From contig OX467082.1 of assembly GCA_950106755.1 (NCBI GenBank), positions 13,020,001 through 13,084,000 of the forward strand: DNA of 64,000 bases. Reading direction: 5' to 3'. Source of the stretch: Climacium dendroides. Its lineage: Eukaryota > Streptophyta > Bryopsida > Hypnales > Climaciaceae. A program made the translations under genes and the position numbers. This document shows positions 35,871 to 60,565 of this stretch, in pieces; position 1 is the stretch's first letter; every line of letters starts with the position of its first letter. The notes beneath the pieces were generated by a model. It was given only the letters and a program-made list of their open reading frames with translations, searched no databases and was not told the origin of the DNA.

Positions 35871-36219
35871 ACTTACAATTGAGTCGTTAATGCGATATAC
35901 AAATTTACAAAGACAAAGAATATAAATATAAATATATTAATATGGGTCATATACCAAATGCCCTGTTTTTCATTTATTTTTTACTATTTAAATTCTAAAA
36001 AATGAGTGGTCGCGACCTTTGTAAAAAGGTGTGACCGGGGTTACATCCCATTCATCCAAATGTTTGTTTGTTTTTTTAATTTTTTTTTTCATCCATCCTA
36101 TACTAATAGTCCTATTTACACTTGAAAACGTAATTTAGCTTTAATTTTAAATTTACTTTTATTTTTTCCTATTAAGGGGCCCCTAATAGCTATTTATTTT
36201 AATTTTTTTCTAATTTATC

Positions 36220-37689: not shown

Positions 37690-38130
37690 TAAAGGATGAA
37701 CGAACCACGCAGTTTAGGTCGAGCGTCCACCGCATCAAATGGCTCTGACAAGGCGGACGCTTGGCCATTTGCATTTGGCGAGCGCCTGCACGAGGCAAAT
37801 ACTTCACCGTATGTCTACCTCGAACGTCCGCCTCAGTAGACACCTGAATGTAGCCGACGGCCGAGTGCTCGCTTCGGTATACGACCAATCCAGCGGATGG
37901 TTGGGCGTCTGTCCAAACATTCGCTCCGTCGGGTGTCTGTCCGGTACATTGGACGACCTCGACGAAACAGACCACATGTTTGCCCATCCATGACCGCCTA
38001 CTCGTCTGCTGCCCGTCAGAAAACATCGTTTTGCGAATGCTCAAGGACGTCCGCACCTGAACATCTATGTCCGCTAGACATCCGGACATGACGTTGAATG
38101 TTCGAACGTCCGAACGTCCGTGCAACCCTA
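37690..38130. repeat. GC-rich right terminal region of the old element
   Basis: GTCCGCC, GGCGGACG and CGAACGTCCG words increase toward the end, finishing GAACGTCCGTGCAACCCTA. Composition and terminal sequence match 60110-60557. Confidence 0.7.
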
Positions 38131-38138
38131 CTTTCAAT
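38131..38138. repeat. 8-bp target duplication, right
   Basis: CTTTCAAT, identical to 14591-14598, immediately outside the terminal CAACCCTA. Confidence 0.85.
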
Positions 38139-39865
38139 GTCTTCTATCCTTCATCTCCCAACACTCCAAACCAATGAAATTTGCTTTAAGTGAAAGTACT
38201 ACTAGTGGGTGAGAGTAGGAAAAATATTATATTCTTCACAAGTGAAGTACAAATTCACATGAAAACCAAGGTACCCAATTCAAGCTTCTTAACAAGCACT
38301 CCTTGAGTCTAAATTGGCTTTAATAATACTTAACTTTTAGTGTTACATTACTAAATACAATTTTTTATGTAACAATGTAATATTTAGATTTTGAAAAATA
38401 CCAACAACATGAATAGATTTGCTAGTGTAAAAATATTTGTGACATAGATGTTAAAATGATTAGAATAAATATTTAATACTATTCAAAATATTAGATAAAT
38501 GATACAAATATGAATAAATAAAAGATAGATTATTTATTATTATTTTAATATAATATTAATAAATTCTACTTAATGTATCCAACAAAATTTTATATATTTT
38601 AAAATATATAAAATATCTTTAGTGGAATATTTTGCAAGATGGAGAATCAAAGTATCTACATTCAAATGAACATATTTTCAAAATTTGAGGACAACTAGAA
38701 GTACAAATGAAAAGTATAAAAAATACAATTAATTGTATACAGTTTAGGTAGTTGAAGTTGAAGAATAAATACTCATACATTATAAAAGTTTTAGAATTAG
38801 AATGATTTGTTTAATATAAAACTTTAAGTTTGATTTTATTTCATAAAAGGATGTTAAATTAAATCAAAATCTAATCTTTAAGATTTAATTTTTAACCCCT
38901 AAAGATCTTTTAAATCCAAAACACTTTTGGATTGTTTAGGTGACCTTAAGTGATATAGCAAAAGTTGTTCTTTAGCATGCATAGGTCTCACTCATGTAGT
39001 ACCTTGAAGCCCTAAATTGTTTATGTCATTGTAGCACAAGTTAAGAATGAGATCCTATAGTTTGAACTTCTTCAAAATGCCTAAAACTTTATTTACAACT
39101 TTTTTTTTCCAAAATGTTGTTTTTGCACAATTTGAGAGAATTTTCTTATTTTTGAGCCAAAGAACTTTAGAAAAAAATTCCTAAATTAGGACTTTAGATT
39201 TTTTGAAAATTTGGTCAAGCTTCATTGACTTTACATTTGTGAATTTCATGAATTTAAAAAAACAGATCCTATCTATCATACTTTACTTGTGTAGCTAATA
39301 TATATTCTAAAAAAGATTAATTAATTTTATTTGATTGCATAGATAGTTATCTATATGAATACAATTAAACCATTTAATTCCACATAGTGAAGTGAAAATT
39401 TTGAAGAGTTTTATTTTAGATGCAATAAAGATAAAACATAATATAAAGTTGTTTTTTGAACTCAATTAAAAAATTTCTTGAATAAAATAAAATAAATACA
39501 ATACATATTACTTACTAGAGCATTTTTACCTTTGAGATATATAATTTTCAATTTTTGGACAAAGTTATTAGCAATTTAGTTTTTCCTTTCATCATGCGTT
39601 TTAAAAACTATTGATCTACATTCACATTTAAAATCAAAACACTTCATGCACATTGCATGTAGTTTGTGAATCAAAGGTTGCAAAAAAAGATCCACTAAAA
39701 AAAATCTTTGATAAATCATAAAAAATTAAGGTTTACAATAATAGAACTTAATATACAAAGGAAAATCTATAAAAAAAAAATGTCAATAACTTGCATCTCT
39801 TTAAAGATGATTTGATTGTAAACGATTGAAAAATATACAAATTAAAGACCAAGAAGTCAAAAAAA
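38139..39865. other. AT-rich spacer, no gene seen
   Basis: Strongly A/T-rich with only chance frames. Weak resemblance to the dispersed repeat is possible near 38890-39250 (CCCCTAAAGATC) but is not firm. Confidence 0.45.
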
Positions 39866-39869
39866 TATT

Positions 39870-41360
39870 GTGATTAACTTCTAAAGTTCCAAGGTCCTTT
39901 TTTCATCAAAAACCACTCAAAGTTGCCATTTCTATTGCAAAGAGAAAAAGAATTTAAAAATTATTTTTTCTTACATATTTAATTGTAGGATCTTGTACTG
40001 CACTAGTATAAAAGAGTGGAAATTTTTTTAGGAACTTGACCTCATAGATTGCAAGATATTTGCATTTAAAGTGAAAAATATAAGTTTTTCTTACACCTTG
40101 CTTGAGTGGCTTTAAACCTTTTTAACTTAAAATTTTTGCACTATTGATTTTGATTTTCTAATTTTTTATGTTGAAGACTTGAGTTGAGAATCCAAGAAAA
40201 AATTCAACAAAAAAACACTTAATTTTCACTCATTAAAAACTTACTACCTTCGTTCCAAAATGAAGTTCTCGTTGGACAAAATCTTTTGGATCAAGGCTAA
40301 AAACAACTTTTTAAAGACTTATTATACACAATAAGTAGATTTTGATGATCTCTTCCCATCCTAAAAATTTGAGTTTTAGAACCCTTTTCAAAGTGCACTT
40401 TTAGAATATTGAAAATTGAAAATTTTTGGGCATTTTCAAAGAACACCAGTGAACACCTAATTGTTGAGTGTCAGGGTGTCATTTTGTAGGCATTTAGTAT
40501 ATGGCTAAAACCAAGTATAAAACTTTGTTTTGCCTCCCAAAACTTAATCTACTTCAATTGGGGAATACTCAAAGAGATGCAAAAAATAAGAAAAAACCAT
40601 GTTCATTGATCCCTTCAATCATTTTATTTGTCTTTTACTCAATGATGCATGGATAGAGGGGGAACTACTACTTAGAATTGTTTTCCTAGTCCCAAACAAC
40701 AATTACAAGCCAAACTTGATCAATTTCAACATCACAAAGTGCAACAAGAAGATCATTTTGGGACAAAAAAACAAGACCAAAAGGAAGATCATTATGGGAC
40801 AAAGGGAGTATTAAATAGAAGTAGTTTCAAGGAAAAACTAACCATTAATAGCTCTAAAATGGAATTGAAACATATTAATTCCAATGGTGAGATTGTTCTA
40901 GCAAGCAAACCTAACCTTGTCTAAAAATTTCTTTTGAAAAATTGTAGAAACTACATTCAAAAATGAATTCTATAAGATATTTTTTTTAAAAGATGCTTAG
41001 ACTACCCGGAAAACAAGATTGTCCATAATTTTCTCATCAATAGCCAAAATGGAATGAATCAAAGCTTCAGATGTAGAAAACAAAATATAATCTTTGAGGA
41101 AAAAATTATAAATTATAAAAATCCAACTTTTTGTGATTATTTTTGGACTATCCCTCAAACTGCTTTTTGGACTTAAGGTGGTATAACTTTTGCTCCCGAT
41201 TGAAATAAAAATTATATTCTCACAAAGCTAATATAATTTTTTATTTTTCAAAAGAAATTTTAAAAAATCAAGTCAAAAATTGAGATCACACAAGCCTACC
41301 TAAAATCCCAAAATTCCCCATAGGGACTTTAGAACTTTAGGGGTTAAAACCCACTCTACA
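39870..41360 (-). repeat. Dispersed repeat family, copy C, with the unoccupied insertion site
   Basis: Inverse orientation to copy A, interrupted by a Stowaway-like unit at 40244-40808. At 39894-39945 it reads through GGTCC-TTTTTTCATCAAAAACCACTCAAAG and then TTGCCATTTCTATTGCAAAGAG (split here by the target). This corresponds to the left and right flanks of the giant element, whose target CTTAAAAT aligns with CTCAAAGT at 39916-39923. Confidence 0.7.
40244..40808. mobile_element. Stowaway-like DNA element, 565 bp
   Basis: The left end CTACCTTCGTTCCAAAATG is complementary, with few mismatches, to the right end, which reads CATTATGGGACAAAGGGAG. TA flanks both ends (40242-40243 and 40809-40810). 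A second inner copy of the GATCATTTTGGGACAAAA motif lies near 40751. TIRs of the CTCCCTYYGTYCCA type with a TA target mark Tc1/mariner-related Stowaway elements. No transposase frame. Confidence 0.7.
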
Positions 41361-41819
41361 AAGACAATAAAAAGTGGATGGTTTGACATGTATTGGACCA
41401 ATGACCACAAAATGACACACGCATAAAACAGAAATGACATGTCGGTACAACAATGGTAGTTGTAGTTGCACTACCAAATGTAGTGCTCTATGAAAATATT
41501 TTATCTCAAAAGTTGTCGTTTTAACATTAGTTGTTGGCTTATATCAACGACCAATGTTTCTCACTTTCATGGTTTAGCCATGTCTTAACGCATGAAATTA
41601 CAATATCAAATTTCATAGTACATTCACTAGTGCAATCAAAGTTCTTGGGATTAGACATGAGACCAAATTTCCATCTCTTTTTTGCATTACAAAAAATTTC
41701 AGGCCTCCGGAGGGTTGTTAAGGTTTTGATTTTCAGCATGCCGCAGTGCAAGTACAGGAAAATATTTAAAAATATTTTTTTTGAAAAATATATATTTAAA
41801 AATATTAAAATATTAAAAA

Positions 41820-43465: not shown

Positions 43466-43473
43466 CTTAAAAT
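43466..43473. repeat. 8-bp target duplication, left
   Basis: CTTAAAAT immediately before CAGGGTTG, identical to 60558-60565. Confidence 0.92.
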
Positions 43474-43892
43474 CAGGGTTGTCTCGGACGTACGTCCATC
43501 ACGAAATCACGTCCAAAATTCGGACGTCCGGACGTCCGTTGTCCAGGTGTCTTGGACGCGGCCGGACTGTGGTTGGTCGGCGTCCAGCGGTTGGTCGGAC
43601 AGCCGTGGGAGCGGTCGGGCGTCCGGTGGAGCAGTTGGGCGTGACGTCGCAGCGGTCGGGAGGGTGGCCGACGGAGCGGTCGGGAGGGCGACCGACGGAG
43701 CGGTCGGGGGGACGTCCGACGGAGCGGTCGGTCGGACCGACGTCGCAGCGGTCGGGCGGACCGCCAGTCCGCAGGTTCGGCAGCGGACGGACCGTCCGAT
43801 CAAACGCCGTCCGCAGGTTCGGGGTAGGTTCGCGTCGTCCGGAGTAGATTCGGGAAGACAAGTTCTAGGTTTGGGCACGGACGGCTATATGA
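43474..43892 (+). promoter_or_regulatory. Left terminal repeat and ZnF-RING promoter array
   Basis: After the terminus come palindromic CGGACGTCCGGACGTCCG words, then a degenerate 24-bp tandem array (about 43585-43765) of the type GGAGCGGTCGGGAGGGCGACCGAC. CTATATGA at 43885-43892 is the likely TATA box, about 200 bp before the ATG. The same strand contains long low-complexity frames that I do not regard as genes. Confidence 0.65.
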
Positions 43893-44094
43893 GGGGACGG
43901 CCAAGGCATTTTCCCTCACTTCAACTCTCCTCCTTGGGAAACAACACCACATCGGATGTGCTACTGTTGCTTCACCGCGCCAGTTGCTCCTATGTGGTAG
44001 AGAGTTGGGGTCATACATCTTTGATTACACCGGAGGGGTTTTGAATCGGTCATTTACACACGGTTGAAGAGAAGAATCAAGGCATCAAGTAGCT

Positions 44095-47000
44095 ATGGAA
44101 GAAAAGCGCGGCATTAAAGGTGAAAGCAGCAAGAGATCGAAACAAAAAGGAGCTCGTCACGAGCTCCGTCTTGACATTTTAAAGGATGAGAACATTTTAG
44201 CTAAGCTTGAGTGGGAGAAGGTGGTCGATGAATACTGGACTTCCAAGTTGTGCAAGAAATATGTGAAGATGTATCACATTGGGAAGTTGTGGCCTCAAGA
44301 ATTACATGCTGGTCACACTCGGGAGTTTTCTTTTAAACTCGCAAGTTGTCTCAGCCCTCATTTTGTCCATCGTTCCGTAGAGGTGTGGCGGGCTCTCTTT
44401 GGGGACAAATCGATGAGCAAGGGTAGAATTAACTACACCATAGCAAGCATGGTGTATACAGAATTGAAGTTGGCTCGCAAGGTGAATTGGAGTACGTACC
44501 CCGGGACAGTAGAAACACCGCTTGTGCTTCCTGATGGCCAGAAAGATATTCCCGATACGTTTGTTTCAAAGGGACAAGTCCTTCAAATGGTTGAAGGCAA
44601 TGCTACTCTATAGCACAACATGGAAGAAAAACGTGTTTCTATCCAAAACAAAGTGCAGGACATGAAAGACAAAGGGGAAAACAAGGAGGAGCGCCCCCTT
44701 GAAAGTAGCAAAATGAATGCCACATCAGCGGATCGGACGAATCAAGCTGATATTTCACTTCAACCCGAAGTGGATAATACAGAAGGTAATGGAGGAGGAA
44801 GTATGACGCTAGAACCGGATACCGTATGTAATACTACGAAAGCTTTAGCGTCTTCTTCGAAGGGTGCGGAACGAGTCGTGCTTGACACTGTACCAATGTT
44901 TCTGAGCCCTTCACCAATTGCATCAAGCGCGAAGGGAGAACCTGGTATTTTCAAGGTGCCATCTCATCCATCAAAACAAGGATCAACGTTGAAGACATTG
45001 GAGTACAAAGAAGAGGTTCCCTCAGAAGAAATGGACAGGGCAACTGCTAGAATCACTCGTCTTCTAGACAGTGATGCCCTTATGGACATTAGTGCCAGGA
45101 CTACAGATGAAGAAATTAACAGAAGTCCAAGTCCAGTTCGGAGTCCAATGCATGAAGTGCCACCTTCCCAAAACATGAATGATGAGAACTTACAGAAGGT
45201 AGAAATGGACTCTCGGGAACCGGGTGTTCTTAACAATGGCGAAGAGACCCCAAAGACGGAGGAGAATCCAATGCTAGCGTTCTTGGGTCCAGAGGATCTA
45301 AAGACTTTATCAATGATGCCTCCGCTACAAGAAATAGAGCACTTACTACAATGTTCTCTTAAATGGAAGACTTTTGAAGTTCAAGAAGAAGTTCATCCTT
45401 CTGCAAATGAAGAGGGTACAACAAATGAAGGAGGCACGATAGATGAAGGGCAAACCTCAACCCCGTGCAACCGAGTATGGAAGTTCGGCGAACTATTCAA
45501 GACTGCCTACTCTCTATCATGTACAGCTAAACTTGTAGCTGTTATGACACCTGCCCTCACACAAATAGCTGAAGAATTTATGAGCATGACACCAGAGATA
45601 CTGGAGGGTGCCGTGGCCTTCAGAAAATTCATTGAATTTGCAGATAAGCTCCAAGAAGAGAAGGTGGAAAATCTCAAGGCTGTAGTTGAGCTTCAAACAC
45701 AAAACGAAGAGCTCATAAAGGTCAATTATGACAAAGAAGATCATGATCGCCTGAAGGTCAAGTTCGACAAATTGGATAAGCATTGCTCTATGGTGTTTTG
45801 GGATAAAGACCATGAAGCCTTGAGAGATATGTATTTTAGTCTTCAAAAAGAAGTTGAGACTTTAAAGCTCTCGAATGGGACATTGGAGTCCCAAAACCAG
45901 AAGTTGGTTTTGCAATTGAAGACATCTGAGGACAATTTACAATGGCATCAGGAGATGTTGAAGACATTACAAAACGACAAGTCATCTGAACATTGCAGGG
46001 ACGGAGCAAGCCTCTTGGAGGCAAGTCAACCAACTCAAGAAAGCGATCAACTTTCGCTTCCTCTTGACAAGGGCAAAGCTGTGGACGAGACTGTAGAAGT
46101 CGTTATGGCCATTGAGAGCCCTAAAGTTGTGCCTCCACTCTCATTAGAAGTTGCTTGCACGCAAACGGTGAATCATGAAGTCCAGGAATTAAGGCAACAA
46201 TTGGACTTGGCAATTCAAGCAAAGAATGACGCGGAGTCTTCTATACAGAGAATGGAACACGTACAAATACTACACGACATCCTTCCAATGAAGACCGGGG
46301 ATCTACGGTGGGTGCTGTGGGCAAGACACCTACAACAACAATCTGGTTTATGCTCTCAACTCATGAGGGGGCTCTTGAAGTATGCAATGCAGTCGGACGA
46401 AGCGTTGAGAAACGTGCAGTCTTCTCACCTGCGTTTGAAAGAGAAGTTCGACGCAGAATTAAAGGATCCCGAAGTATGCATTATAGTTTGGGGAAACATG
46501 GATAGAATGTTCGAGCGGTTGAATCACGGGAGAACCTATGAATCAGACAACATCAATTGGGCATTGGAAGCGGAAGAAGGATGGGTTCCTCACAACACAT
46601 TGTCTGCTCATATTGTTCAACATGAGAAGCAGCTTATACCTGGAAGTGATCCCAATGTTCCTTTGATGAAGGAAAAGTGCTCTCTTTGCCAATATCGTTT
46701 TGGGCCTGAAGGAGGTCTAACATTGGGTCAATGTGGCTACTCTTTTCATATTCTTTGCATCTAAAGAGCAGCACAATATTCCGCCCATTGCCCCAATTGT
46801 TGTACTCCTTTGAATGCAAGGTTTTATGAAATGCTAGGAATATTGCATTCTATGGCATTAGGTCATGAATTCAACCGGTGGAACCTTCCACTAGACCAAG
46901 CGCCACACAAATTCCAAAATCATTTGCACTGGGGAAAACCAATGGTATGGCTACCAAACGAAGGGATACATTCATTATACATGGATCCTCAAGACAAGGA

Positions 47001-47745
47001 TGAGTACTTCTGGATGACGCGGGACTTGGAAGTGGAATTGCGTGCCTTCGGGATCCCGGATAACGATGCAAGAGAAATGTTCTGTCATAGCATGGGGGGG
47101 CACTGGAGCACGCAATACCAAAAATTCTTCCGATTTCCTGATAAGGAATGGAAGAAAGAAGGGCCAAATGACCCTTTCGTGGAAGTGGAGTCTGATCCTA
47201 GAATCACAAAGCAGTACGAGGGGTACAATTCCGATTTGGTCGGGCGGGCCCGCATCTTAGCGAAGTTGGAAGAAGCAGCTAAGGTTCGTTGCATGTTGGA
47301 CTTGAATACGAAAGCAATGACAAGCCATAAGATGGAAGAGATTGCTCGGGCTTTCGATAAACGGATGGATGATGTTATCACCAAGTGGAGGAAGTATCTA
47401 GGGGGCGAACCTCCAATAGCTGATAAAGGTGTACCAGCTTGGTATTACGTGCAGAGCGAAGATAAAGTCATCGAGTACCTCGAAGACTTAGTACATGCCG
47501 CTCTGAGGACTTTAAACGCCCATGAAGTGGAGTTATCTCCGAAGCGGAAGAATAAACGGAGAGTTGAAGAAGATGATGACCACTCTCCAGAAACTAAAAG
47601 ACTATTTGAGAGGGTTGACATGGAAGTACAAACTGGAGAAGGACCCAGTGGTGGCCAGGCGATACCTCGTCGCAAAAGCAGAAGACTCATGGCGAAGGAG
47701 GGGACATCTCGTGCTGCAGAAGAAGATAGTAGTACTGAAAACTAA
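44095..47745 (+). CDS. ZnF / coiled-coil / RING-H2-like protein, two in-frame stops
   Basis: One reading frame of 1217 codons from the ATG at 44095, interrupted by TAG at 44611-44613 and TAA at 46762-46764. The old copy is open at the first site and has Met at the second, so both look like later mutations. Residues 47-132 form the shared zinc-finger-like domain (WTSKLCKKYVKMYHIGKLW, then C85 and H89, then INYTIASMVYTELKLARKVNW). Residues about 175-500 are Ser/Pro/Glu-rich and look disordered. Residues about 515-640 and 690-722 have coiled-coil character. A RING-H2-like segment spans 46675-46810: C-x2-C, C, H, C, then C-x2-C, with Tyr where the old copy has His. The C-terminal part has conserved MFCHSMGGHWSTQYQKFF and ends with basic clusters PKRKNKRR and PRRKSRRL, probably nuclear signals. 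By family logic it could be a ubiquitin E3-like factor; the substrate is unknown. Confidence 0.8.
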
Positions 47746-48119
47746 TAGGGAAATGTCTCGTTTCGTACTCTACATCTATTATATTAGTACTAGTAGAAAA
47801 TAAATAGCTTGTGGGGATTTTAATTAGTAGTTTTCTCTACCAAAAATTATTGTACTTAGGCTATCACGTTCATCATAGCTTCTTCATAATGTACATCGAA
47901 TTATAGGTGTATGCCACAAAAGTATGTTTTGATTTCCTTCACTTTACATATATATCTATATATACATATTTTGTATTCGATCTCTTTCTTTATATATATA
48001 GTTTTTTTTTGGCATATAAATTGAAGAATATGTCTATTTTTTCATTTATTTATTTATTTCATTGTTTGAATTCAATTCAATATGTTCTATTTCAGACTCA
48101 ATATTATACCTCATTTGCT

Positions 48120-48343
48120 TGCTCGGCCCTCTGGGGTCGGTCGGCCCTTTGAGGTCGGCCGGCTTGTGGGGTCGGTCGTCCCAGTCCGGTCGGTTGGCCC
48201 CCTTCGGTCGGTCGGCCCCGTCCACCCACACCGCGCGGTCGGCGCCGTCCGCTGATTTTTCACGACCGTTGTACTCGGCCTACGGACTGTGCAACGGTCA
48301 ATTCTTATTTCTAAAGCAAAGTGCGGACTGGGCAGAGTATAAG
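48120..48343 (+). promoter_or_regulatory. GC-rich promoter array of the transposase gene
   Basis: GGTCGGTCGGCCC-type words at about 48120-48250 end with TATAAG at 48338-48343, about 270 bp before the transposase ATG. This array is shorter than the other four. Confidence 0.55.
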
Positions 48344-48442
48344 AGCAAGGTTCAGGTCATTTGCAAACACTCCTGAGAAGCTGAACGCTAAGATTCCCAA
48401 GGGCTACGAGCTGCAAATTGAAAAATTTGTATCCGTTGCTTG

Positions 48443-48527
48443 GTAATGTATAGTTCAGTGGACAGGGGGGCTTTGGTTTATAAGGCTTCATACACAAATT
48501 TTTTTTCGTACATGTGATTGGGTGCAG
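48443..48527 (+). other. Possible 5' UTR intron of the transposase gene
   Basis: A donor-like TTGGTAATG at 48443 and an acceptor-like T-rich stretch ending GGTGCAG at 48527 would define an 85-bp intron in the leader. Length and ends are plausible for plants; there is no transcript evidence. Confidence 0.3.
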
Positions 48528-48608
48528 GAATGAACGTACTATGCGTTTGAAATCGAAGGCCGATATTTGAAGTTTCAAATTGGATCTGCAAGCTATTCAT
48601 TTTTTAAA

Positions 48609-51600
48609 ATGAGTACAAATTCTCATCTTTGGTATACCATTCCATCCCCCGGCAAAGTGAAGTGTAAGGCATGTGGGCTGGAGTTCGTAAATCGGAAATG
48701 TCGCATGTTGAGCCACTTGGGATACGAAGGCAAAAATGGCAGGCGCGACTCAGGAATAAGCCTATGTCTACGATTGACATCGGATGTCAAGTCTCTTTTC
48801 CTTCGTTGTGATGGGATGTTTCCATCCAAATCAATCATTGAAAATGTAGATGGTCGGAACGCACTGATGGTTCTAGGCAATACCTCAAATGGAAGGGAGT
48901 CGCCATGTTCAACACAAGAAGACTCGTGCACAGCACCGGAACAAGCAGCTCTTTCAGCTTCAAGGGTGATTCCTAGTGCCCAAACATCAAGTGACCAACG
49001 ACCTACACCTTCTTCTGTAACTAGGCCTCAAAAACAAAGCCGATTAGTAGATGGATTTGAAGAAGCCGAAAGATGGAAGTTGAATATGTTGTGGGCTAAT
49101 GTCTTCTATTCAGCAAACATACCATTCGCGGTAGCTCGGACTGCAGCATTCAAAGAAGCCGTCATGAGAACGGCTGACTTCAAAAAGCCATATAGTCCTC
49201 CATCGTATCAAGCTCTACGAACTAAATTGCTAGACGAAGCAAAGGCAGATCTTGAGGTGAAGTTGCATAAGAGGACCGAGGATAGTATCCGAAAGTTTGG
49301 TGCAACATTGTCTATTGATGGGTGGTCCTCGGTTACGAATCGGCCATTGGTAAATGTCATGCTTGTATCTTCTGCAGGGGAGCAATTTCTGGGATCAGTG
49401 GACACAAGTGGACATGAAAAGAATGCAGAGTACTTGGCTTCTATTTTGGATGAATTCATACAGAAGGTGGGGCCTCAAAATGTGGTGCAAATAACAACAG
49501 ACAATGCTCCTGTGAATCCCAGAGCGTGTGAGATTATAACCGACAAATATCCTCACATTTTTTTCCAAGGTTGTGTAGTTCACGCCTTAAATTTGTTGCT
49601 CAAAGATTGGGGAAAGGAAGCATGGGTGGACACGGTAGTAACAGACGCCCGAGTGGTTCTTAAGTTCTTTAGAAAGCGACACATGCCACTTGCAATATTC
49701 CGGAGTTACGAGAAAGAGTACAGCTTGTTGATGCCGGGGGAAACAAGATTCGCCTCCAATTACATGGCGCTTCACCGATTGTTGAAGGTAAAGGGTGCTT
49801 TAAAACAGTGTGTAACAGACCCTCGTTGGCGAAAATATGCGAGGACATTGAGGAAGAAGAAGAATGGTGGCGAGGAGTCTACAAATGCGACAAAGATAAT
49901 TAACGATGACCACTTTTGGAGGCGTTGCACCAATTTCGTTCAGTTGCTGGGCCCCGTGGTACATGGCCTCCGTGATTTAGATGCAAAGACGCCATGCACA
50001 GGCAAGGTTTTGCATATCATGAGGAAAATACGGAAGCACGTGGCGGATTTGGAGAATTCGCCTTTTAAACTAAGTTCGGAACTTGCAAAGCCATTGAGGG
50101 CAGCATTCCAAGAGCGATGGGAAATGGTGGAGACCGATATTCAATATGCAGGAGCTCTTCTAAATCCTTACTTGCTTCATGACAAAGAACTAGCAGACGA
50201 TGGTGAGGCGATTGACGCATGCAAACGTGTCCTCATGCGAATTTGTAAGCGTAGAGAGTACGCTGACGTCGTGAAAGAATTCATGGCTTTCCGACATAAA
50301 GAACCACCTTTTCACAATATGCTGGACCCAAGCGAGTCCAAATTATCAGCACATGCTTGGTGGGATTTTGAAGGTGTTTGTGGAAAGCTCATTGCTCCGA
50401 TTGCAAGGAGAATTTTAGGGCAATCGGTCTCTTCCTCTTCATGCGAGTGAAATTGGAGTAGCTATTCCTTTGTTCATAATAAGGCTCGAAACAAGTTGAA
50501 AACAAAGAGAGCCATGGATTTGGTGTATGTGTATACTAATTCCAGAGTCCTCGCTGCTTCAAAGGAGAACGATGAGAAGTTGTGGTACCGCGAGAATGCG
50601 GAGTCAGAGGAATCCGAGGGGCTTATGGAGGATGACGAAAGTAGTGATCATGATGTCGAGGAAGAACATCTTCCATGGCGTGGAAATGAGGAGGTCAATG
50701 ACGACAGGGGGGAATCGGAATTGGAACCAGAAACAAGTGATGACAACCTCAAATCCGATAAAGAAGAGGATCTGAACGACGACACGTACGCTTTTCGTGG
50801 TAGACTGTCACAAAGACGAAATGAGTATGATGATGACATGATTGACTTGGATACAAATAACCGAGATGAATTTGAATTTTTAGAAGACGAAGATCTACCT
50901 TCTATAGCGAGATTTGTAGATGGGAGCCGACTTCTAAACAGCCATACCGTTTTGGCAAACAAGGAAGACACCATTGTGGAAAAGGCGGTTCAGAACGGGA
51001 TATCAGTTACAAGAGGCCAAACTTTACAAGCAAATGAAGTGATTGAACATGAAAGGTCTCCATCCATACCATTAGGCCAACCTGGAGAAAATGACAAACT
51101 ACATTCTTGGGAGAAAATAGATGCGGACAAAACAAGCTTCGAATTTGGAGAAAAATTGGTTGATAAGAGCATCGAGAGACCGAGCTTCCTAAGCCTCAAA
51201 CCGCTAGAGGTATTGGACAAAGGGGATTCAGGTTCAAATGAGTGCAGAAGTCCGAACATGGTCCACAATGACCAAGGCAGAAATGACAACATGCAGAGGT
51301 CGCAACGTCCAACGAATAACGATCCTCCACCCGCTCCACGCTCATTGTTGAACGGTGGAAGTGGTAGTACTACTCTGGGGGGTTCACCGAGTTTTCTACC
51401 TACATTGCAAGCTTCCAACATTCAAGAAGAAACTGTGAAGCGAAAATTCACTAGTTTAGAGTGTACTAGTGATAGGGAAGATGAGACATTGGAATCAATG
51501 TTCAAGAGCATAGCAAGCCGCCCACCACAATGTTCTCAAAGACTAGAGGACATGAAACTACGATCTGTGAATGAAATAACAGCGGTTGCTTGCCAACGGA

Positions 51601-52004
51601 GGCAACAAGCAAAAGAAGCAATGGTAGAAGAATCCGCTAAACCTAAGAAGAAACGAGTGATGAAGCCATTTGCTATCTCCCCAAGGAAGAAAGTACATGG
51701 AGGAAGAACCCCCTTAGATACACGAGTATCCCTTCCAACTCTTCCCGCAAAGAAAGGACGATTGGCCGGCGGTCTTCGAGAACGCATCCTCGGTAAGAAT
51801 TTCTTAAGGAGGAAGGATGATCCAAACATAGGCAAGGGGAAGAAAGCTTCTACATCTACGGAAATCAGAGGAAAAGAGAAAGAAAAAGTATTGTCTTCAT
51901 CAGATGATGAAGACAATACTTTCGACGATGAAGACGACGGATGGCTATCAAGAGACTATAGTAGTGGGGCAAAGGTAAAAGGAGATAGTGATTATCATCC
52001 TTAG
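48609..52004 (+). CDS. hAT-superfamily transposase with long C-terminal extension, one in-frame TGA
   Basis: The ATG at 48609 starts MSTNSHLWY; an upstream in-frame TTG is not a credible start. Residues 16-53 form a BED-type zinc finger (C19, C22, H36, C53). The DUF659/RNase H-like catalytic core follows, with SIDGWSS (D237), TTDNAP (D298), GCVVHALNL (C322, H325) and PGETRFASNY. The C-terminal hAT dimerisation motif begins AWWDFEGVCGKLIAPIARRI and SSSSCE, is cut by TGA at 50448-50450, and continues in frame with NWSSYSFVHNKARNKL. Other hAT proteins normally have Arg at that codon, so a CGA-to-TGA change is likely. Beyond about residue 645 lies an atypical 480-residue tail, first very acidic, later Ser/Pro-rich, then basic with PKKKRVMKPF (NLS-like) and an acidic end. 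It would bind the element ends in the nucleus and catalyse cut-and-paste. As written, translation would stop at residue 613. Confidence 0.92.
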
Positions 52005-52430
52005 GAATTGAATCTTACATTCTTAGAATGGGTTAGATTAGAATACGTTACATAGATAGTTCTTCAAATCTTTATGATTTGAATTTGGAAGACTTTATGA
52101 ACGTAGTAGAAATGACTCAAATGAGGTTTGACATTTGACACGCATTGCTCTATAATAGGAATTTGCGTGTTTATTTTGAAAAATGTAATAAACCTTTTTT
52201 ATTCATTATCTTTGGTTGAATGGTTGAATAGGAAATTGAAGAAGTCTTCACTGCGTGTATTTTGGTTATTCATGCTCCATGTACAAAACAAATAAATCAG
52301 ATAATTTCTTGGGAAGCGTTAGAAATAATGAACCTCAGAAAGAAAGCTTGCATAAAAACTGAAATCTGTAAATACCAAATTACAAAATTGAAGATCGTGG
52401 TTGGCGGAATGGCGGGGGGGCACAATGGCA
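52005..52430. terminator. Transposase 3' region
   Basis: AT-rich DNA with AATAAA-like words (TAATAAACC near 52187) that could serve as a polyadenylation signal. Nothing else is supported here. Confidence 0.35.
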
Positions 52431-52439
52431 GCAATGTAG

Positions 52440-52925
52440 TAGACTCTCCGACCGCGTGGAAGGTCGTGGATGGGCCGACCGCAGGTCCGTAGCGGACCGT
52501 CCACGAGAGAAAGAGAAGAGAAGCAGGGGCCGCGGACTGGCCGACCGGGCCTACCGCAGGTTTAACGACGGTCCGACCAGCGACCGCAACGGACGGGGCC
52601 GACCGATGGTTCGCAACGGACTGTCCAGTCTGACCTACCGCGCGAATGGGTCGACCGCGCCGGACGGGGCCGATCGATGGTCCGCAGCGGACTGTTGGAC
52701 TGCGCGGATGGGCCGACCGCGCCGGACGGGGCCGACCGATGGTCCGCAGCAGACTGTCGGACCGCGCGGATGGGCCGACCGCGCCGGACGGGGCCGACCG
52801 ATGGTCCGCAGCGGACTGTCGGACCGCGCGGATGGGCCGACCGCGCCGGACGGGGCCGACCAATGGTACGCAACGGACTGTCGGACCGCGCGGATCGGCC
52901 GATCGCAGCGGCCACATAAAGGTGA
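52440..52925 (+). promoter_or_regulatory. Orphan GC-rich array: 62-bp tandem repeats plus TATA-like box, no gene downstream
   Basis: About four to five units of 62 bp, phased at about 52642, 52704, 52766 and 52828, each with GGGCCGACCGCGCCGGACG and GGTCCGCAGCGGACTGTCGG. The array ends with CCACATAAAGG (52912-52922), placed like the TATA boxes of the element's other arrays. No credible reading frame follows for 2 kb. The long frames within the array on both strands come from its GC-rich periodicity. Confidence 0.7.
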
Positions 52926-52929
52926 CCCA

Positions 52930-54740
52930 AATGATTAAGAGGTCATCTGCCATTCGGGAAACTGGGACTTACTGTGTTTCTTGTCTTCAGGTCTGAGGTC
53001 TGAGGTTCGATCACTTGAGTTCATGCGGTGGTATGAGGCTTGGTTTCAACTTCCAACAACCAATTCCCATTTCTCAAAAGTGGGTGATCTATTCATTCTT
53101 TGTGGAAAAGGGGGGGAATGAACAATAATAAAGCTAAAGTCCTTGCCAAGTGCCAACGAATCTTGAATGAAACCTACCACTAGAAAATGCAAAGAGTAAA
53201 TTACTTAAATATTTTTCGATTTCAGGGCTACAGTTTTTCACGGCCAGTCGGCTATGTCACCATGTACCATTCTTTATAGAATTACAATGCATATATTTAT
53301 ATGGTCAAACTATAAATGGAATCGGTTTTAAATGAAAACAAGGTTCCATGTAGCAGAGAAAGCTCTGTGAGTCTGTGTGAAATCCCTACAATCCTACATA
53401 AGTACATTTGTATTCTTTGTAATTTGAAACCTCCAACCAAATTGTTCCGCAAAATATTTAATCCAAGCCGGAAAGCTCAAATGAATGAAGAAACACCTAT
53501 ACTAGTATACTATTTACTATCTCACCTTGCATGTTGATTTGTTTGTTGGCCAGGAATTCTGCATTTTAGATCTACATGACTCAAGATTTATTAATAAGGT
53601 ATTTATAAATTTTGAAAGTATTCTACAACAAAATCGTGAGTGTTGGACGAAGCACAACAAAATTATCAAATGTTTCTTGCAGTCACCTAGATCCATTAGA
53701 AATTAGAAAAAATTTAGAATTTTCATTGTATTTTAGGTACATTTCAATGTCAAAAGGCTCCCAATTCTATATTTGGAATGATGAACTAAGTGACTAGGAA
53801 GATGTTTCATCTAAATGAAGATGTTTTATCCAAAATGATTATGGACTCTGGAGAGTGCAAACCTTCAATGACCAATTTGATGAAATGGAGGTAACCAATA
53901 AACCAATATGTACACAAAGAATAGAAGCAAAAATATACAAGATTTAGAATATTATTCTTTTGTTAAATTACTAACAACAACTTCAAGGGGCTCTAACTCT
54001 AATCCCTCAAGTTGACTTCACATAAATACCTAAATATGACCTATAAACAGAAACCGAATTATTTAATGCATTATTGCATTGAGATTTGTAACTTTAAAGG
54101 ACAGTTTGTTTAATTGTTTACATGCAATTTTATGAAATGGAATTGGAGTTGGAGATGAAATAAGGTCATTCTATATTTAACTATAGTGAAAAGTGATTGA
54201 ATGAGTATTTTACCATAGTTTGTAACTTTGTATAATCATACTTTCTTAGTTTTTGTTGGATTTTATTCACAATTGAAGGGTGATTTTAAAAAATACTCAT
54301 ATTATTTTAGAGTCTTGTATTGAGTGTTTGCAAGTTGCAATGTCTTTTTTTATAACTTTTCATACTTGTTTTTTTTTGAGTTTACTAAAGTTTTGACTAC
54401 TGAAAGCAATACTTTTACTCTTTTAGAAACAAGCTTTTACGAGTTCTGAAGTTTACAGTTCAGATTTTAAGTATTTCAGTATTTTACAAATCACAAAGAA
54501 TCATTATTTTATGATTATATGCATTAGAAAATGACTACAAACTTCACTTTTCTTCAATTACATATTTTTAAAATTCACCATGAAAAAATGAAAATTTAGT
54601 CTCTCTCCCTCTATGTACATTTATAGTTTGTACTCAAAGTACTTATAAGATGTAAGAATGAGTCAATTGCAAACATATTTCATGAAGAGAAATATTGAAA
54701 TTCTAAAAGTGAGTAGTCATCAGAATTACGAGTAGGATTC
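52930..54740. other. AT-rich interior of the giant element, no gene seen
   Basis: The first about 150 bp after the orphan array are of mixed composition (GGTCTGAGGTCTGAGGTTCG near 52990) and could be a transcript leader or a non-coding RNA. The rest is AT-rich with only chance frames. Confidence 0.45.
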
Positions 54741-54744
54741 ATGG

Positions 54745-54790
54745 TTTTTAGGGTATAGGGTATAGGGTTTAGGGTTTTAGGGTTTAGGGC
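54745..54790 (+). repeat. Interstitial telomere-like repeats (TTTAGGG type)
   Basis: Degenerate GGGTATAGGG, GGGTTTAGGG and GGGTTTTAGGG units in a row, about 170 bp upstream of the Gly-rich gene's promoter array. It may act as a telo-box-like regulatory site or be junction filler. Confidence 0.7.
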
Positions 54791-54954
54791 ATGGAGTTAT
54801 TTTTCAAGTTTCACATTGAAGAGGCAAAATTCCCGCCTTCAGTTTTCAAAGTTTTCATGTCCTTACCTGAAGTTCATGACGAACTAATGGTCTAACAGGC
54901 TGCCAGCTCACTCCTTTGGATTCTCCACTCACAAATAACTAATTTTGGAGAATC

Positions 54955-55390
54955 CACAGGTCGTGGGTTGCCTGGCCGTCCGCTCGGCAGACAGTGCGCC
55001 GACCAAGCGGTCGGCGAAAGCAACGACCCGTCTGCTGAGCGGACGGGCCGACGGCCTATCGGTCGGGGCAGACGAAGTCCGTCCGTCCGCCCGACGGCAG
55101 ATCGGTCGGGCCGACGACCGATCGGTCGGGGCAGACGAAGTCCGTCCGTCCGCCCGACGGTAGATCGGTCAGGCCGACGGCCGATCGGTCGGGGCAGACG
55201 AAGTCCGTCCATCCGCCCGACGGCCTATCGGTCGGGACGACGGCCAAGCGGTTGGTGCGTCCGTCCGACTCGGCCGTCCGTACGTCTCTGTTGACCGTGG
55301 GATGGGAGATGCGGATTCACGCTGTCCGTCCGATCTTGCCATTCGACCCTGAAGCCGACAGCGACATCCGCCTCGTCGGTCGGTATAAAA
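54955..55390 (+). promoter_or_regulatory. GC-rich promoter array of the Gly-rich gene
   Basis: At least three 63-bp units (near 55060, 55123 and 55186), each with GGTCGGGGCAGACGAAGTCC and ending CGACCGATC or similar, then a clear TATAAAA at 55384-55390. The ATG is about 215 bp further on. Confidence 0.7.
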
Positions 55391-55603
55391 AGCGGAGCGG
55401 ACGGCTCATTCCACACAATTGTTTCCCTTGCGGAGTGGGTGATCCAGCGGCTATTGGTCTCTGTGCGCCCCTTCCACCTTGGTGTGTGAACAATTGTGAA
55501 TGAATGAATGGTATCCACTATTCACTAATTATTATAATGTGAAATCAATACACAATATTCATTAATCATTCTAACGTTGAGGTAATTTATAAAGAAGGGT
55601 ACT

Positions 55604-56800
55604 ATGCCTCGCAAAGGAATTCCGTTTCTTTCCGGTTCTTCGAAGAAAAGTTCGAAGGGGAAACCACAAGAACTAGATTGGGATGTTTACTTCGATGAAT
55701 TTAATGTGGCAAAGGAGGGGTGGGAGTACGAGTCCAACAAAGTGTGGACTTGTACAATGTGCAAGAAATATGTGACCATGTCACACATAGCCAAACTGTG
55801 GCCAGCAAATGACAGTTTGGAGAAGCAAGTGAGACGGTGGGAAGGCCCTATGAAGACGTGTACGAGTAGACACTTTGTAGAGAGATACGAAGAAATTTGG
55901 GCAGCTTCAAATCTAGGTCCCTCGAAGCCTACCATCATGAACTATTCTACCATGGCAATGGTTTGGGTGGAGATTGTACTCCAGAAAGACGTTGATTGGC
56001 GTACAGTTATAGGGATGAATAAAGAGACGAAGATGACGTGTCACTCAACTGTGGTGTTCACTAACTAGCGTGGCGAAAGTGATTGTATGCCGGCTTGGTC
56101 GAACCGAGGTCAATTTGGGTGCCCAAGTTGGCCTATGCGGGATGCAAAGGACAGTGATGCTGACGATGATGAAGAACCAGCTGAATAGTTGCCACCTCCA
56201 CCTCCACCTCCGGAGAGACACGAACGCCGAGAAGAACGCGAAGACATAGAATACGAGAATCAAATGCGGGAAGCATTGAGGAGGAGTGTTGAGGATCAAG
56301 GCCGACCTCGTGGATATCACACTTCACCTCGTCGTGAACGTGATGTACATGGCTTGCGACATGGAGGAAGTAGTTCACACTATAGGAACAACCCTCGAGA
56401 TGGTGGTCCAAACGTAGAAGGAGGCTATAGAACTACAACCTATACGGACTACGGTGGTCTTTCACATGGCGGCCCTCAATACTGCCCAGGAACAAGGGGA
56501 CCTCATGGAAACACCAGTTATACAGACTATGGTGGTTCGGAACAAGGCGGCTCGCGAAATTATCCGAGAACAGGAGGACATGATTTGTATGGGCCTCATG
56601 GAAGTTCTTACTACACTGGTTCAAGCCATGGAGGGACTGGAGGCTCACATGAATATGCTTCAGTTCCACCTCCAACTTTTGGAGGTCCTTATTACGAAAA
56701 TTATGGACAAGGGCGACAATCAAGCGGATATGGGCCATATGGTGGCTCTGGTTCTACGCCTCAAAGTCAAAATCATGATAGTAGTTCTGATTCTGAATGA
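55604..56800 (+). CDS. ZnF / Gly-Tyr-rich protein, two in-frame TAG codons
   Basis: One frame of 398 codons from ATG 55604 (MPRKGIPFLSGSSKK). Residues 48-132 are the shared zinc-finger-like domain: VWTCTMCKKYVTMSHIAKLW with C50, C53, H61, then C86 and H90 (CTSRHFVERYEEIW), followed by MNYSTMAMVWVEIVLQKDVDW. TAG at 56066-56068 is shared with the old copy, and coding similarity continues past it (SDCMPAWSNRG). A second TAG at 56186-56188 is not shared. A proline run, an Arg/Glu-rich charged segment (ERHERREEREDIEYE) and a Gly/Tyr/Ser-rich low-complexity tail with YTDYGG and GGSxxY motifs complete it, ending DSSSDSE. Such tails occur in RNA-binding and condensate-forming proteins. No RNA-recognition motif is visible, so the function is unknown. 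Confidence 0.8.
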
Positions 56801-56809
56801 AGTATAGTG

Positions 56810-58480
56810 TTATTTTGTAGAAAAATATAAGGTGCCATTATGTAGTTATGGGCTTTGTTTTTTAGTGTGGTTTTCAAGTGTAATGCATTGTCAATTTGTC
56901 ATTTGCCATTTGGAAATAATGCAATAGTTGTAGGAATGCAAGTATATTCGAACACGTGAGATGTATGAAAAACTTGTTTTAGCCCCCAAAACGAAAGTGG
57001 TACAGGCTATAAGACTATTTTATAATATAATAAAATTATTTGCTTTTTACCTTGTAGAGTAAGTAGAGTTCCATACTATCACTCCAATATGAATGGTTAA
57101 TTGTTGCAAGTGTTGAGTATGTGAATGATGTGGTGTAATGTATTTGAACATCGGAAGTTACGTATTTTGGTCATTTGTAATGAATGCGTACTGAAAACCA
57201 TGAAAGTTACGTGCTTGTATATAGAATTGTAAATGTACGGTTGTTTTTTGAGTCAAAATGGTGTGACCAAATCATTTTTATAAAACCTTTGTCGAAAAAC
57301 TAAACACCTTTTGGTAATTGGTAATTTGGTATGCACCAAAAGAAATTTCATTATGTAATTAGCTTTGATGTTGTACTTCCCAAATGCTATTTTAAGTATT
57401 GGACCTTCACGACAACAATTCAAGACTTATTCTTCTTCAGGTATTTTAACACTAGAAGAGTAAAAACAACAAGATATCATGTTGTTGAAATTCATTGATG
57501 AAATGAATTCGAGCTCTCTGGATATTGGATAGGCAAGAATATAATGTACAAGTAAAAAATTAAAAATTAAAACAAGTTACAATTATTTTCCTACCTACTA
57601 TAACCTACTAGGCTACTACCTAGTGCAGTAGTGCCTATACTCCCCCCCGTCCCTTCACTCCCTTGTTTTGAGCAATTTAGGCCATAACTTCTATTCCCGG
57701 TCACTGATTGTGGAGAAAATGAGGTCTCCATTATCCCATATAGCTTAATAAGCTTATCAATTTTTCCATCTTCAGAAAAAGTTTCAACAAATCACGACAA
57801 AATTTCAAGTTGTAAGTACCTACCTAATAACCCCTAAACCCTTGAAGGGACCCTAAGTCCTTTAGAAGTGAACCTTGAACTCACAATTAGGCACTCACAT
57901 ACAATCATACATTCATACACGATGTTTCCCTCGGTCCTTTAGTTGCCCTCCATCGTCATATGAATTAAGAGACATAGAGGTAAGTAAACGCTTACCATTT
58001 TTTATATTGTCATTGACATTATTATAATGAACATCTTCAATCACATTTACTATACCACAGAAATGAAGACAAGGACTTGTCAAGCTAACAATCAATGAAT
58101 CATAGAATCAACAATCATCAATTAAAAATTCAACGAATAAAGAATTGCAAATTATTTCATATAATGATTTCTAGATTTCCAATTTTCCATCCAAACATAC
58201 GATGACAAATGGCGTAAAGACTTCCAAGTTCTCCAAAATCATTGTGAATTAAAACATGCTCATTGATTACAAATGCTAAGATGCACCTTGCTGTAAAACA
58301 GCATTCACAATCAATCCACTCATTGGTGATGAAACTGAGGTATATCATCCGTATATACTATACTACTATATAATTGACATGTAACTTAGTATATGTCTTT
58401 GCCTCTATGAATAGTGCATACTATAAACACCTATAGGCTATAGTTAATTACTTATATATGATATATTAATATCATTAAAG
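56810..58480. other. Intergenic region between converging genes, no gene seen
   Basis: AT-rich DNA between the 3' ends of the Gly-rich and kinase genes. The stretch 57640-57860 (GCCATAACTTCTATTCCCGGTC, split by changes, then ACCCCTAAACCC) resembles part of the dispersed repeat family in inverse orientation, but only loosely. Confidence 0.4.
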
Positions 58481-58482
58481 AC

Positions 58483-59979
58483 TTAAACTACAGCTCCAAA
58501 GTGGCGGAAGTGTTCATCCGGTATAGGCCAATGAAACGAAGAAGTAAATCGCGAAATCACTTGCGCCAAACTACTATGGCCATCGGGACCATCTTCGCAA
58601 AGTCTCCCCAAATACACTTGAAAGACTTGTGCTAAGTCGTGATGCGAGTACAACACATGTTTTTTGCTTCCACGACCTTGCAAACCGTAGTATGTCCCTG
58701 ACATACATGTACTATTGATTCTCTTCGCTATTTGACCAACAGCAAATTCTTCGGACTTAATGGTAAGTACGGGTATGTTCTCCACATCTGCATCTCTTCG
58801 ATGTACGTATGTAATCTTTGGATCGATCCACCACCTCCTCCTCAGAACTTCGTCCCGATCACTTGTTGATGTGAATGTATACAATGACTTCATGGGCTCT
58901 GTACTAGTCGTGGTCATCCCCCAATCGCAAATTCCAATGAAAACCTGCGACTCGTCTTCCGGGAAATGGAACATGATGTTGTCTGGAGAAATGTCGTTGT
59001 GAAGGTGTCCGGCACCATGTACCGCATTCATAATATGCAGCAGTGCCCAAGCAAGCTCCGTACGCTTTGCTCTCCATCGCTTTAGACGATGAGCACGAAT
59101 GACCTCCTCGTCGCTAATTTTGGGGTCACACATAATGCGTATGGCAATATTGTCTGAATAATCGTTATCCATTCTCAACATTTCACGCAAAGTACCACCA
59201 TTCCACCACAATGAATAGCCTTCGTTCCGATTTGTGTGGACTGCAACGAAGCGTATGACTCCATCGTGCGGAATCCGCACCGCCATCGATTCAATTTGGT
59301 GTTCCATCTTTGCAAGCTCAGGTCGTCGACCCTCTTGGAGAGAGATTTTTGCTGCAAATTCCCAATGTGGTTGAAGTTCAGGGCACCCTTCGATTCGCAC
59401 CCTACGAATTGTGGCATAGCCTCCGCGTAGGACAATATTATCTTGTGGAATCACCCTTGCAGTTCCCGGGAGCGCTATTAAATGGCGAAATACAACTCGC
59501 ATGTTGATTCGCCCTTCATGAGTTGTCCACCAACTCATAAATCCACCTCTATTTCGTCTTGAAGCAAATGGTCTCATCCGACTCACGAACATGTCCACTT
59601 TTGTAATCACGTGCGTGAAGGCTTCATCATCAATGCGATGAACCTTACCAAATTTTTCGACGGTCCCTTTCGCATTCCATAGTGCATCATGCCCTCGTTT
59701 GTCCAACCAACTAGTGAAATCCTTCTTTTCCATTTCTTCATACCACCCTCCCACCCGCAACGCTTCATACATTATGTCCTTTATATCGCCTTTGAACTTC
59801 TCAATGCCCTCCTCTTGATAACGAACATACTTAGAATCAAGAGACATGGTAGTTTCTCTCTCATAGAATTCAACAATGCATTTTCTCAAAAATGCGGTAC
59901 AAGTGTGCGAGGGGTTGTCCATGATGTCGGCCTTAGTAAATTCCTCCCCAAACTTCGTTTTCTTCTTCGCCCTTGGCAT
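58483..59979 (-). CDS. Protein-kinase-like protein
   Basis: 498 residues, uninterrupted. The start is the ATG at 59977-59979 (MPRAKKKTK), because the old copy aligns from the same point (MTRAKKAAK); the 65 codons open upstream lie in the GC-rich leader. Residues 1-170 are unlike known kinases. The kinase-like fold follows, with LRGGYATIRRVRI (185-197, glycine-loop-like), FAAKISL (K211), HQIES (possible helix-C Glu), and the catalytic loop HLHNDISPDN (D329, N334), an HRD variant with His-Asn-Asp. CDWG (D352) stands in for DFG. All classical catalytic residues appear present, so catalysis is plausible. The closest class cannot be fixed by eye. It is transcribed inward from the right terminus, convergent with the other genes. 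Confidence 0.85.
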   Translation of the reverse strand: MPRAKKKTKFGEEFTKADIMDNPSHTCTAFLRKCIVEFYERETTMSLDSKYVRYQEEGIEKFKGDIKDIMYEALRVGGWYEEMEKKDFTSWLDKRGHDALWNAKGTVEKFGKVHRIDDEAFTHVITKVDMFVSRMRPFASRRNRGGFMSWWTTHEGRINMRVVFRHLIALPGTARVIPQDNIVLRGGYATIRRVRIEGCPELQPHWEFAAKISLQEGRRPELAKMEHQIESMAVRIPHDGVIRFVAVHTNRNEGYSLWWNGGTLREMLRMDNDYSDNIAIRIMCDPKISDEEVIRAHRLKRWRAKRTELAWALLHIMNAVHGAGHLHNDISPDNIMFHFPEDESQVFIGICDWGMTTTSTEPMKSLYTFTSTSDRDEVLRRRWWIDPKITYVHRRDADVENIPVLTIKSEEFAVGQIAKRINSTCMSGTYYGLQGRGSKKHVLYSHHDLAQVFQVYLGRLCEDGPDGHSSLAQVISRFTSSFHWPIPDEHFRHFGAVV

Positions 59980-60109
59980 CTTGATGAATGTCGCACGATT
60001 CGAGAAAAAAAATGACAAGGGTCCCCCCAAGATTTCACCTTTACCCTCCCGAGGAGAGGAGGCAATAGGACCCAAAGGCACTAAGCTTCTCCGCTCTCTC
60101 TTGCAAGCA

Positions 60110-60557
60110 AGGGGGAAGGTAAAAGTGAGAGGCGGACGGCCCGACCGCCTCTTTTGTATGAGGCGGACGGCCATCCCGTCCGCCCAATCTCAGCCGTCCG
60201 CCCTGGTGGACGGCCGATGGGGCGCCCCGTCGGGTCCGTCCGATTGGCCATCCGATCGGGCCGCTGATCGGTCGGACGGGCCCGATCAGCCGACAGATCG
60301 GTCGGCCCCGTCCGCCCCGTCCGTCCGCGCGGTCGGCCCCGACCGCCCCGTGGTCCGCGTCCGTCCGGTCGGTCGGCCCTGTCTACCCCGTCGTCGCCGT
60401 CCGACCGCTCGGTCGGCTCACTGAACCGGCCGACCGCCCGTCCACTGGACGGACGCGAGTCCGAAATTTCTATGTCCCCGGACGCCCGAAAACCCGTGGA
60501 CGCGGACGTTGGACGTCCGTCCAGACGTCCGGGCGTCCCAGTGTCCATGCAACCCTG
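60110..60557 (-). promoter_or_regulatory. Right terminal repeat and kinase promoter array
   Basis: On the minus strand, GC-rich GGTCGG/GGACGG words run from the terminus to a TATA-like CATACAAAAG (60151-60160), then CGGGCCGTCCGCCTCTCACTT, which matches the DNA upstream of the old kinase copy. Plus-strand and minus-strand frames through this block are compositional artefacts. Confidence 0.6.
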
Positions 60558-60565
60558 CTTAAAAT
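60558..60565. repeat. 8-bp target duplication, right
   Basis: CTTAAAAT directly after CAACCCTG, identical to 43466-43473. Confidence 0.92.

Follow-up and report, generated by a model that had tools for sequence, protein, structure and literature searches.

A 64,000-nucleotide stretch of contig OX467082.1 (positions 13,020,001 to 13,084,000; hereafter the window, in whose coordinates all features are given) carries what we regard, with fair confidence, as a hAT-type DNA transposon that moved together with a cargo of other genes. This element, E1, spans 43474-60557 (17,084 bp), is bounded by hAT-like ends with a perfect 8-bp target site duplication, and encloses genes for a transposase, a RING-type protein, a zinc-finger/Gly-rich protein (ZnF/Gly) and a predicted kinase. 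The ends CAGGGTTG/CAACCCTG, the duplication, the DUF659 hAT transposase and the three genes beside it are all present as the original prediction had them, and so E1 stands; a second cargo-bearing element in the window, E2 (14599-38130, 23,532 bp), had been overlooked. We found it through ends with matching flanks. E1 and E2 are likely two hAT elements of one lineage with the same three extra genes, in which the linkage of kinase and transposase probably extends to other contigs.

The left terminal inverted repeat of E1, CAGGGTTG (43474-43481, forward strand), and the right one, CAACCCTG (60550-60557, reverse strand), are bordered by two copies of CTTAAAAT (43466-43473 and 60558-60565), seen in the sequence and recovered by a flank scan. 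The 8-bp end word is not rare on its own (three matches in the window against 1.59 expected), so that the case for E1 is built on the duplication and the content and not on the word by itself. The scan covered 108 end pairs no more than 40 kb apart and with up to one mismatch. From random flanks, 0.004 identical 8-mers per window would be expected, or 0.075 when one mismatch is tolerated; the identical pairs were two, those of E1 and E2. The two flanks of E1 were fused so as to keep a single copy of the duplication, and this query, aligned to the rest of the window, matched across the junction with two repeat copies, at 1948-1453 (68% over 496 columns) and 39874-40187 (71% over 329 columns); its part to the left of the junction measures 49 bp. 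Both copies are uninterrupted at the insertion point and are, by these alignments, related empty sites. Past movement would thus be indicated by the duplications for both elements and, for E1, by the empty sites as well. The ratio of observed to expected CpG is 0.93 in E1, 0.64 in E2 overall and 0.13-0.37 in the flanking DNA, and by this measure there is a sharp compositional border at the ends of E1. E1 may be either young in a methylated neighborhood or an element that was kept unmethylated. No part of the window matched Rfam at gathering scores.

All four genes predicted within E1 could be located, three of them with in-frame stops. Gene 1 (44095-47745, forward strand; Pfam and Cys/His pattern) codes for a zinc-finger domain at the N terminus and a RING-type finger, the best RING match (E 2e-4) falling under the Pfam cut-off; together with the Cys/His pattern, such weak matches hint at a RING identity. 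Its stops are at 44611-44613 and 46762-46764. The transposase (48609-52004, forward strand; Pfam) consists of an N-terminal Cys/His stretch that had no Pfam match, a DUF659 domain (E 1.2e-38), the Dimer_Tnp_hAT region (24.0 bits, cut-off 21.4, with one stop read through) and a long C-terminal tail. The stop, at 50448-50450, comes immediately after the conserved Glu; 13 of the 15 relatives printed in the alignment have residues at this position, and all 13 read on through it. Between the transposase and the next gene, E1 includes six copies of the plant-type telomere repeat TTTAGGG (54747-54789). Gene 3 (55604-56800, forward strand; Pfam and reading frames) codes for the zinc-finger, Gly-Tyr-rich protein, with stops at 56066-56068 and 56186-56188; a zf-C3HC match in E1 (E 1.8e-4) is also under the Pfam cut-off, and the finger region is 37% identical to that of gene 1. 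A fold of the zinc-finger domain predicted from four paralogues had a predicted local distance difference test (pLDDT) score of 48 and was discarded. Although the ZnF/Gly genes of the two elements are far diverged, a TAG stands at almost corresponding positions in E1 (56066-56068) and E2 (30027-30029); it may mark the true end of the protein or a splice site, or be a coincidence. Gene 4 (58483-59979, reverse strand; Pfam, alignment and fold) is an uninterrupted frame of 498 amino acids. Its Pfam kinase match (E 1.6e-5) is under the cut-off, and we call it a kinase because the alignment described below and the predicted fold support that match. In the model (pLDDT 85), residues 25-163 form a helical N-terminal part, after which the fold resembles that of protein kinases; the top structural match was ULK1 (E 2.9e-8, 14% identity, template modeling score 0.60 by target length, root-mean-square deviation 10 Å). 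As three of the genes hold in-frame stops, the assembled E1 has probably lost its autonomy; splicing, considered by eye, is a possible explanation of these stops.

E2 provides the other copy by which the original prediction was to be checked, with other flanks, a different perfect 8-bp duplication (CTTTCAAT, 14591-14598 and 38131-38138, from the flank scan) and decayed relatives of the three cargo genes. Its left terminal repeat is CAGGGTTG (14599-14606, forward strand), followed by the block AAATCACGTCCAAA, which is also present at the left end of E1, and its right end is CAACCCTA (38123-38130); AGGGTTGCAYGGAC is common to the right ends of both elements, the E2 end being read inwards. When the E1 proteins were searched against the window by tblastn, relatives of gene 1, ZnF/Gly and the kinase appeared inside E2 (14.8-33.4 kb), and outside the two elements there were zero matches at E 1e-3. 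Gene 1 of E2 is split. Its decayed main part with the RING region (14805-17667, reverse strand; tblastn and alignment) is separated by an insert of ca. 7.7 kb (17668-25363), with arrays of short words at both ends, from the N-terminal zinc-finger part (25364-25779, reverse strand). The insert, which also bears GC-rich arrays at 19.2-19.5 kb, was not called a transposon, as neither a convincing duplication nor a clean terminal repeat was found for it; no coding content was recognized in it either. The decayed ZnF/Gly gene (29589-30929, forward strand; tblastn and alignment) and the kinase-like gene (31986-33392, forward strand; tblastn) follow, the latter as frameshifted pieces amounting to nine short frames, two of which are weak matches. 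Just before this kinase remnant there are three perfect copies of a 70-bp unit (31757-31966), apparently duplicated in tandem not long ago, while the rest of the element is decayed. E2 also holds one member (36042-37632) of an AT-rich repeat family whose inverted relative lies outside (39802-41392; 59% over 1.7 kb), and further relatives are found at 1.2-2.0 kb of the window and at the right flank of E1.

The linear order of gene 1, ZnF/Gly and kinase is common to both elements, with gene 1 and the kinase each inverted in E2; one inversion of the E2 interior, considered as an explanation, fails to yield this orientation. Over the gene regions, E1 and E2 share about 55-62% DNA identity. In the kinase, the differences at codon positions 1, 2 and 3 were 154, 128 and 261 over 465 codons, and the third position was the most divergent in all six gene parts compared, two of the other five (the gene 1 finger and ZnF) including matches to each other's paralogue. 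This excess, as read from the aligned codons, is the mark of past selection on the proteins.

Relatives of the cargo were also searched for outside the window. The kinase had 52 matches at E 1e-3, with 26-65% identity, among them two proteins of Ceratodon purpureus and one from a metagenome-assembled genome labeled Bacilli, the last being probably a contamination. One kinase cluster represents 126 sequences; its Ceratodon locus tag, KC19_VG, we take to denote the V sex chromosome. An alignment of the E1 kinase with 34 of the 52 (the 18 left out were mostly fragments, and some of the most diverged) had K211, E230, N328-D329, N334 and D352-W353 invariant in all 35 sequences, so that the catalytic residues are retained throughout, and a Pkinase match at E 0.01 was obtained for 34 of them. 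For the transposase there were 29 matches, of which 26 were used with E1 for a profile and residue counts, leaving out the three most diverged; a separate alignment left out 11 of the 29. With the catalytic D-D-E positions assigned from Hermes, an assignment that we assume to hold here, the first Asp was conserved in 27 of 27 sequences; 26 of 27 had the second, and all 18 rows that extend as far as the Glu had it. Two pairs of relatives coincide in the length of their longest contig: kinase P0038 and transposase P0056, both with 27,639 bases, and kinase P0049 and transposase P0077, both with 6,480 bases. The kinase of the second pair is far more diverged (26%), and the link between kinase and transposase looks old because the coincidence recurs and includes this distant kinase. 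Among IMG/VR viral contigs and GTDB genomes, no locus could be confirmed for the kinase, the transposase or the kinase alignment, and no solved structure was matched by sequence with the kinase profile or the transposase.

The other feature shared by the two elements is a set of GC-rich word arrays. For six such words together, the count is 224 in E1 (17.1 kb), 125 in E2 (23.5 kb; 54 of them in the insert) and 11 in the remaining 23.4 kb of the window. The E1 arrays are located at the left end, with CGGTCGG and GGACG words that extend into the 5' flank of gene 1 (43474-43900; CTATAT at 43885), 5' of the transposase (48120-48260; TATAAG at 48338), between the transposase and the ZnF/Gly gene (52449-52950; a 62-bp tandem unit), 5' of the ZnF/Gly gene (54950-55405; a 63-bp tandem unit, TATAAA at 55384), and at the right end, which is also the 5' flank of the kinase (60120-60557). 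Their density reaches 74 words per kb before gene 1, 20 before the transposase, 93 before the kinase and 22 in the interval between transposase and ZnF/Gly, while the genes (2-4 per kb) and the convergent 3' stretch (0.6 per kb) have few. The arrays of E2 lie upstream of gene 1 (to about 26450, TATAAT at 26015), ZnF/Gly (28870-29345, TATAAA at 29336) and the kinase (31240-31530, TATAAG at 31494), with 16, 18 and 8 words per kb, respectively, and at the right end (37690-38130; 42 per kb), the stretch 3' of the kinase having 0.9 per kb. The words are element specific. CGGTCGG is found 38 times in E1, 37 of them in the five arrays, and nowhere else in the window (mean 3.5 and maximum 9 in 200 first-order Markov controls). 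The arrays of E2 favor GCGGACA (7 of the 12 copies in the window, in five of five arrays) and those of the insert GCGTGGA (7 of 11, in three of three), two counts given without a shuffle control. A TATA-like word comes after the array in six of seven gene 5' flanks, compared with 1072 of 5523 random 300-bp stretches at a GC content of 0.42-0.55 and 1050 of 2000 at any GC, a rough comparison in that the seven flanks measure 255-400 bp and have a GC content of 0.40-0.59. End-like words, CAAGGTTG, are found beside inner E2 arrays at 17668, 19186 and 25996 and may be remains of older element ends.

Our explanation is that E1 likely moved as one cut-and-paste unit together with its three cargo genes. 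The transposase would cut at the ends and could act in trans, the latter being proposed because none was found in E2. The GC-rich arrays, those at the element ends as well as those 5' of cargo genes, would be shared putative binding sites of the transposase, the zinc-finger proteins or both. VANC proteins find their own VANDAL elements via element-specific tandem motifs, according to the sections of PMC5735166 considered here. By analogy with VANC and its motif arrays in Arabidopsis VANDAL, one set of proteins might both mobilize the element and keep its promoters active, and the position of the arrays suggests binding sites common to mobilization and expression. The kinase and the RING protein might have host silencing or repair as their target, or else modulate the transposase. 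Taken to its full extent, the idea would be an old lineage of giant hAT elements in mosses with its own regulon, in which arrays couple mobilization and expression, the kinase and a RING ligase disarm silencing or steer repair, and transposase-free copies ride in trans; this we put forward tentatively, as a possibility that is short of probable.

Several results weigh against these proposals. Read with the standard code, three of the four E1 genes are interrupted by in-frame stops (two in gene 1, one in the transposase and two in gene 3), and the middle part of gene 1 had no homologue among 7,995 candidates scored. A profile of the E1 transposase and its 26 relatives detected no transposase in E2 up to E 1; outside E1, its best match was at 8.1 kb (E 0.24), so that the four-gene unit is seen complete only once. 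The conserved set of four genes that had been predicted is upheld for the three cargo genes, which recur in E2, and for the coincidence of kinase and transposase, seen twice, but not for a transposase in E2. The linkage in other contigs also carries a caveat, as it takes each pair of equal lengths to be a single contig holding both genes. The kinase region of E2, read in one frame, had no Pfam match, and the joined flanks of E2 found no empty site in the window. As for the arrays, the left end of E2 has few words (3 in 206 bp), a word cluster lies inside its gene 1 (15968-16098), the E1 array at 52449-52950 is 2.6 kb upstream of the nearest downstream gene start, and the E1 kinase flank lacks a strict TATA word. 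Finally, relaxed end words (CARRGTTG) within 30 bp of an array occur at 17668, 19186 and 25996, all in E2; they make up 3 of the 13 matches other than the ends of E1 and E2, and 8.3% of the window would qualify as array adjacent.

These end words give some weight to a composite origin, in which the genes and their arrays would go back to small transposons that were once independent of each other, the inner arrays being what is left of old ends. The arrays are alike at the ends and inside, the 7.7-kb insert of E2 bears them at both of its ends, gene 1 and the kinase are inverted between E1 and E2, and the excess of relaxed end words beside inner arrays (3 of 13 against 8.3% of the window) somewhat favors a composite E2. 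However, the inner arrays lack an exact CAGGGTTG, those of E1 lack even a relaxed end word, the insert has no convincing duplication, and the gene order is equal in both elements, so we consider merged elements unlikely. That the transposase-free type of E2 might be the normal form, a cargo element mobilized in trans, with the E1 transposase as a late gain, fits the failure to find a transposase in E2; the coincidence of kinase and transposase in two other contigs, one with a kinase at 26%, speaks against it and leaves it a rather small chance.

Capture of the Pack type, by which a hAT element acquired unrelated host genes on a single occasion, the cargo playing no part in its life cycle, has a precedent in plant hAT elements that capture coding DNA (Pack-hAT, in the sections of PMC8903248 considered here), and the genes of E1 are partly broken. 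But the same three cargo genes are present in E2 at about 55-62% DNA identity and with its own duplication, the codon pattern indicates past constraint, and relatives of kinase and transposase coincide twice in the length of the longest contig, which makes a single uptake of host genes a smaller chance still. The last possibility, a host gene cluster with CpG-island promoters that lies by chance between two end-like sequences, could appeal to the 8-bp end word, which alone is no rarer than chance; it is contradicted by the empty-site alignments of E1, by perfect 8-bp duplications at two loci against 0.004 expected, and by the rarity of the array words outside the elements, and we find it hardly credible.

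The preferred reading, a hAT transposon that moved with its cargo, has to be placed among known systems. The textbook picture of the hAT superfamily is one of small transposons, typically a few kb long, most of which have just one gene. With the Ac/Tam3/hobo group and the DUF659 lineage, E1 and E2 have in common the 8-bp duplication and short terminal inverted repeats (CAGGGTTG/CAACCCTG in E1, CAGGGTTG/CAACCCTA in E2), to which are added DUF659, the D-D-E residues and the C-terminal dimerization region; a transposase with this region was found only in E1. They differ in their 17-23 kb, the three further genes, the arrays at gene 5' flanks and the long C-terminal tail of the transposase. E1 is thus a hAT element by its membership features, set apart from known ones by size, cargo and arrays, and the new class of transposon announced in the original prediction has to be lowered to a variant within hAT. 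Pack-hAT and other Pack-TYPE elements, as far as they are described in the sections of PMC8903248 considered, are similar in having hAT ends around coding DNA, and E2, in which no transposase was found, resembles them in this too, whereas a recurrent set of whole genes in two diverged copies and the transposase of E1 are different. By the Pack-hAT definition of an element without its own transposase, E1 would be left out and E2 would be included.

VANDAL elements have a Mutator-like transposase and a duplication of about 9 bp. In contrast, the E1 duplication is of 8 bp, and the Pfam matches of its transposase above cut-off are DUF659 and hAT dimerization. VANDAL/Hiun with VANC (PMC5735166, in the sections considered) are comparable, by analogy only, as multigene plant DNA transposons with dense, element-specific arrays of short motifs in their noncoding parts. 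VANDAL-type antisilencing involves an element-encoded protein that binds such arrays and removes DNA methylation; of this, the arrays were observed in E1 and E2. The E1 proteins have no VANC-like Pfam match, and no kinase or RING gene of VANDAL is mentioned in those sections. Among the Pfam matches of eight E1 frames and two read-through E1 frames there was no Starship captain gene. The giant Starship transposons are moved by a tyrosine recombinase, and their captain gene is DUF3435. They resemble E1 as large DNA elements with several cargo genes, but they belong to Pezizomycotina fungi (PMC11623301, in the sections considered), while the hAT transposase described here is from what is likely a moss. 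Among the best matches in the open-access PMC literature (subscription papers and preprints lie outside it), no title or abstract dealt with a kinase- or cargo-carrying plant hAT element, which is no proof of absence, and the sections of the moss genome paper PMC9247546 considered contain nothing on such elements.

These results suggest that plants have a giant, multigene kind of the usually small hAT transposon. If this is true, giant cargo transposons, best known from fungi, would have counterparts in land plants that depend on another recombinase. A hAT lineage with a recurrent set of kinase, RING and zinc-finger genes would make it possible to test directly how a large cut-and-paste element withstands silencing, and such a cargo-hAT lineage might explain the multicopy kinase genes in mosses.

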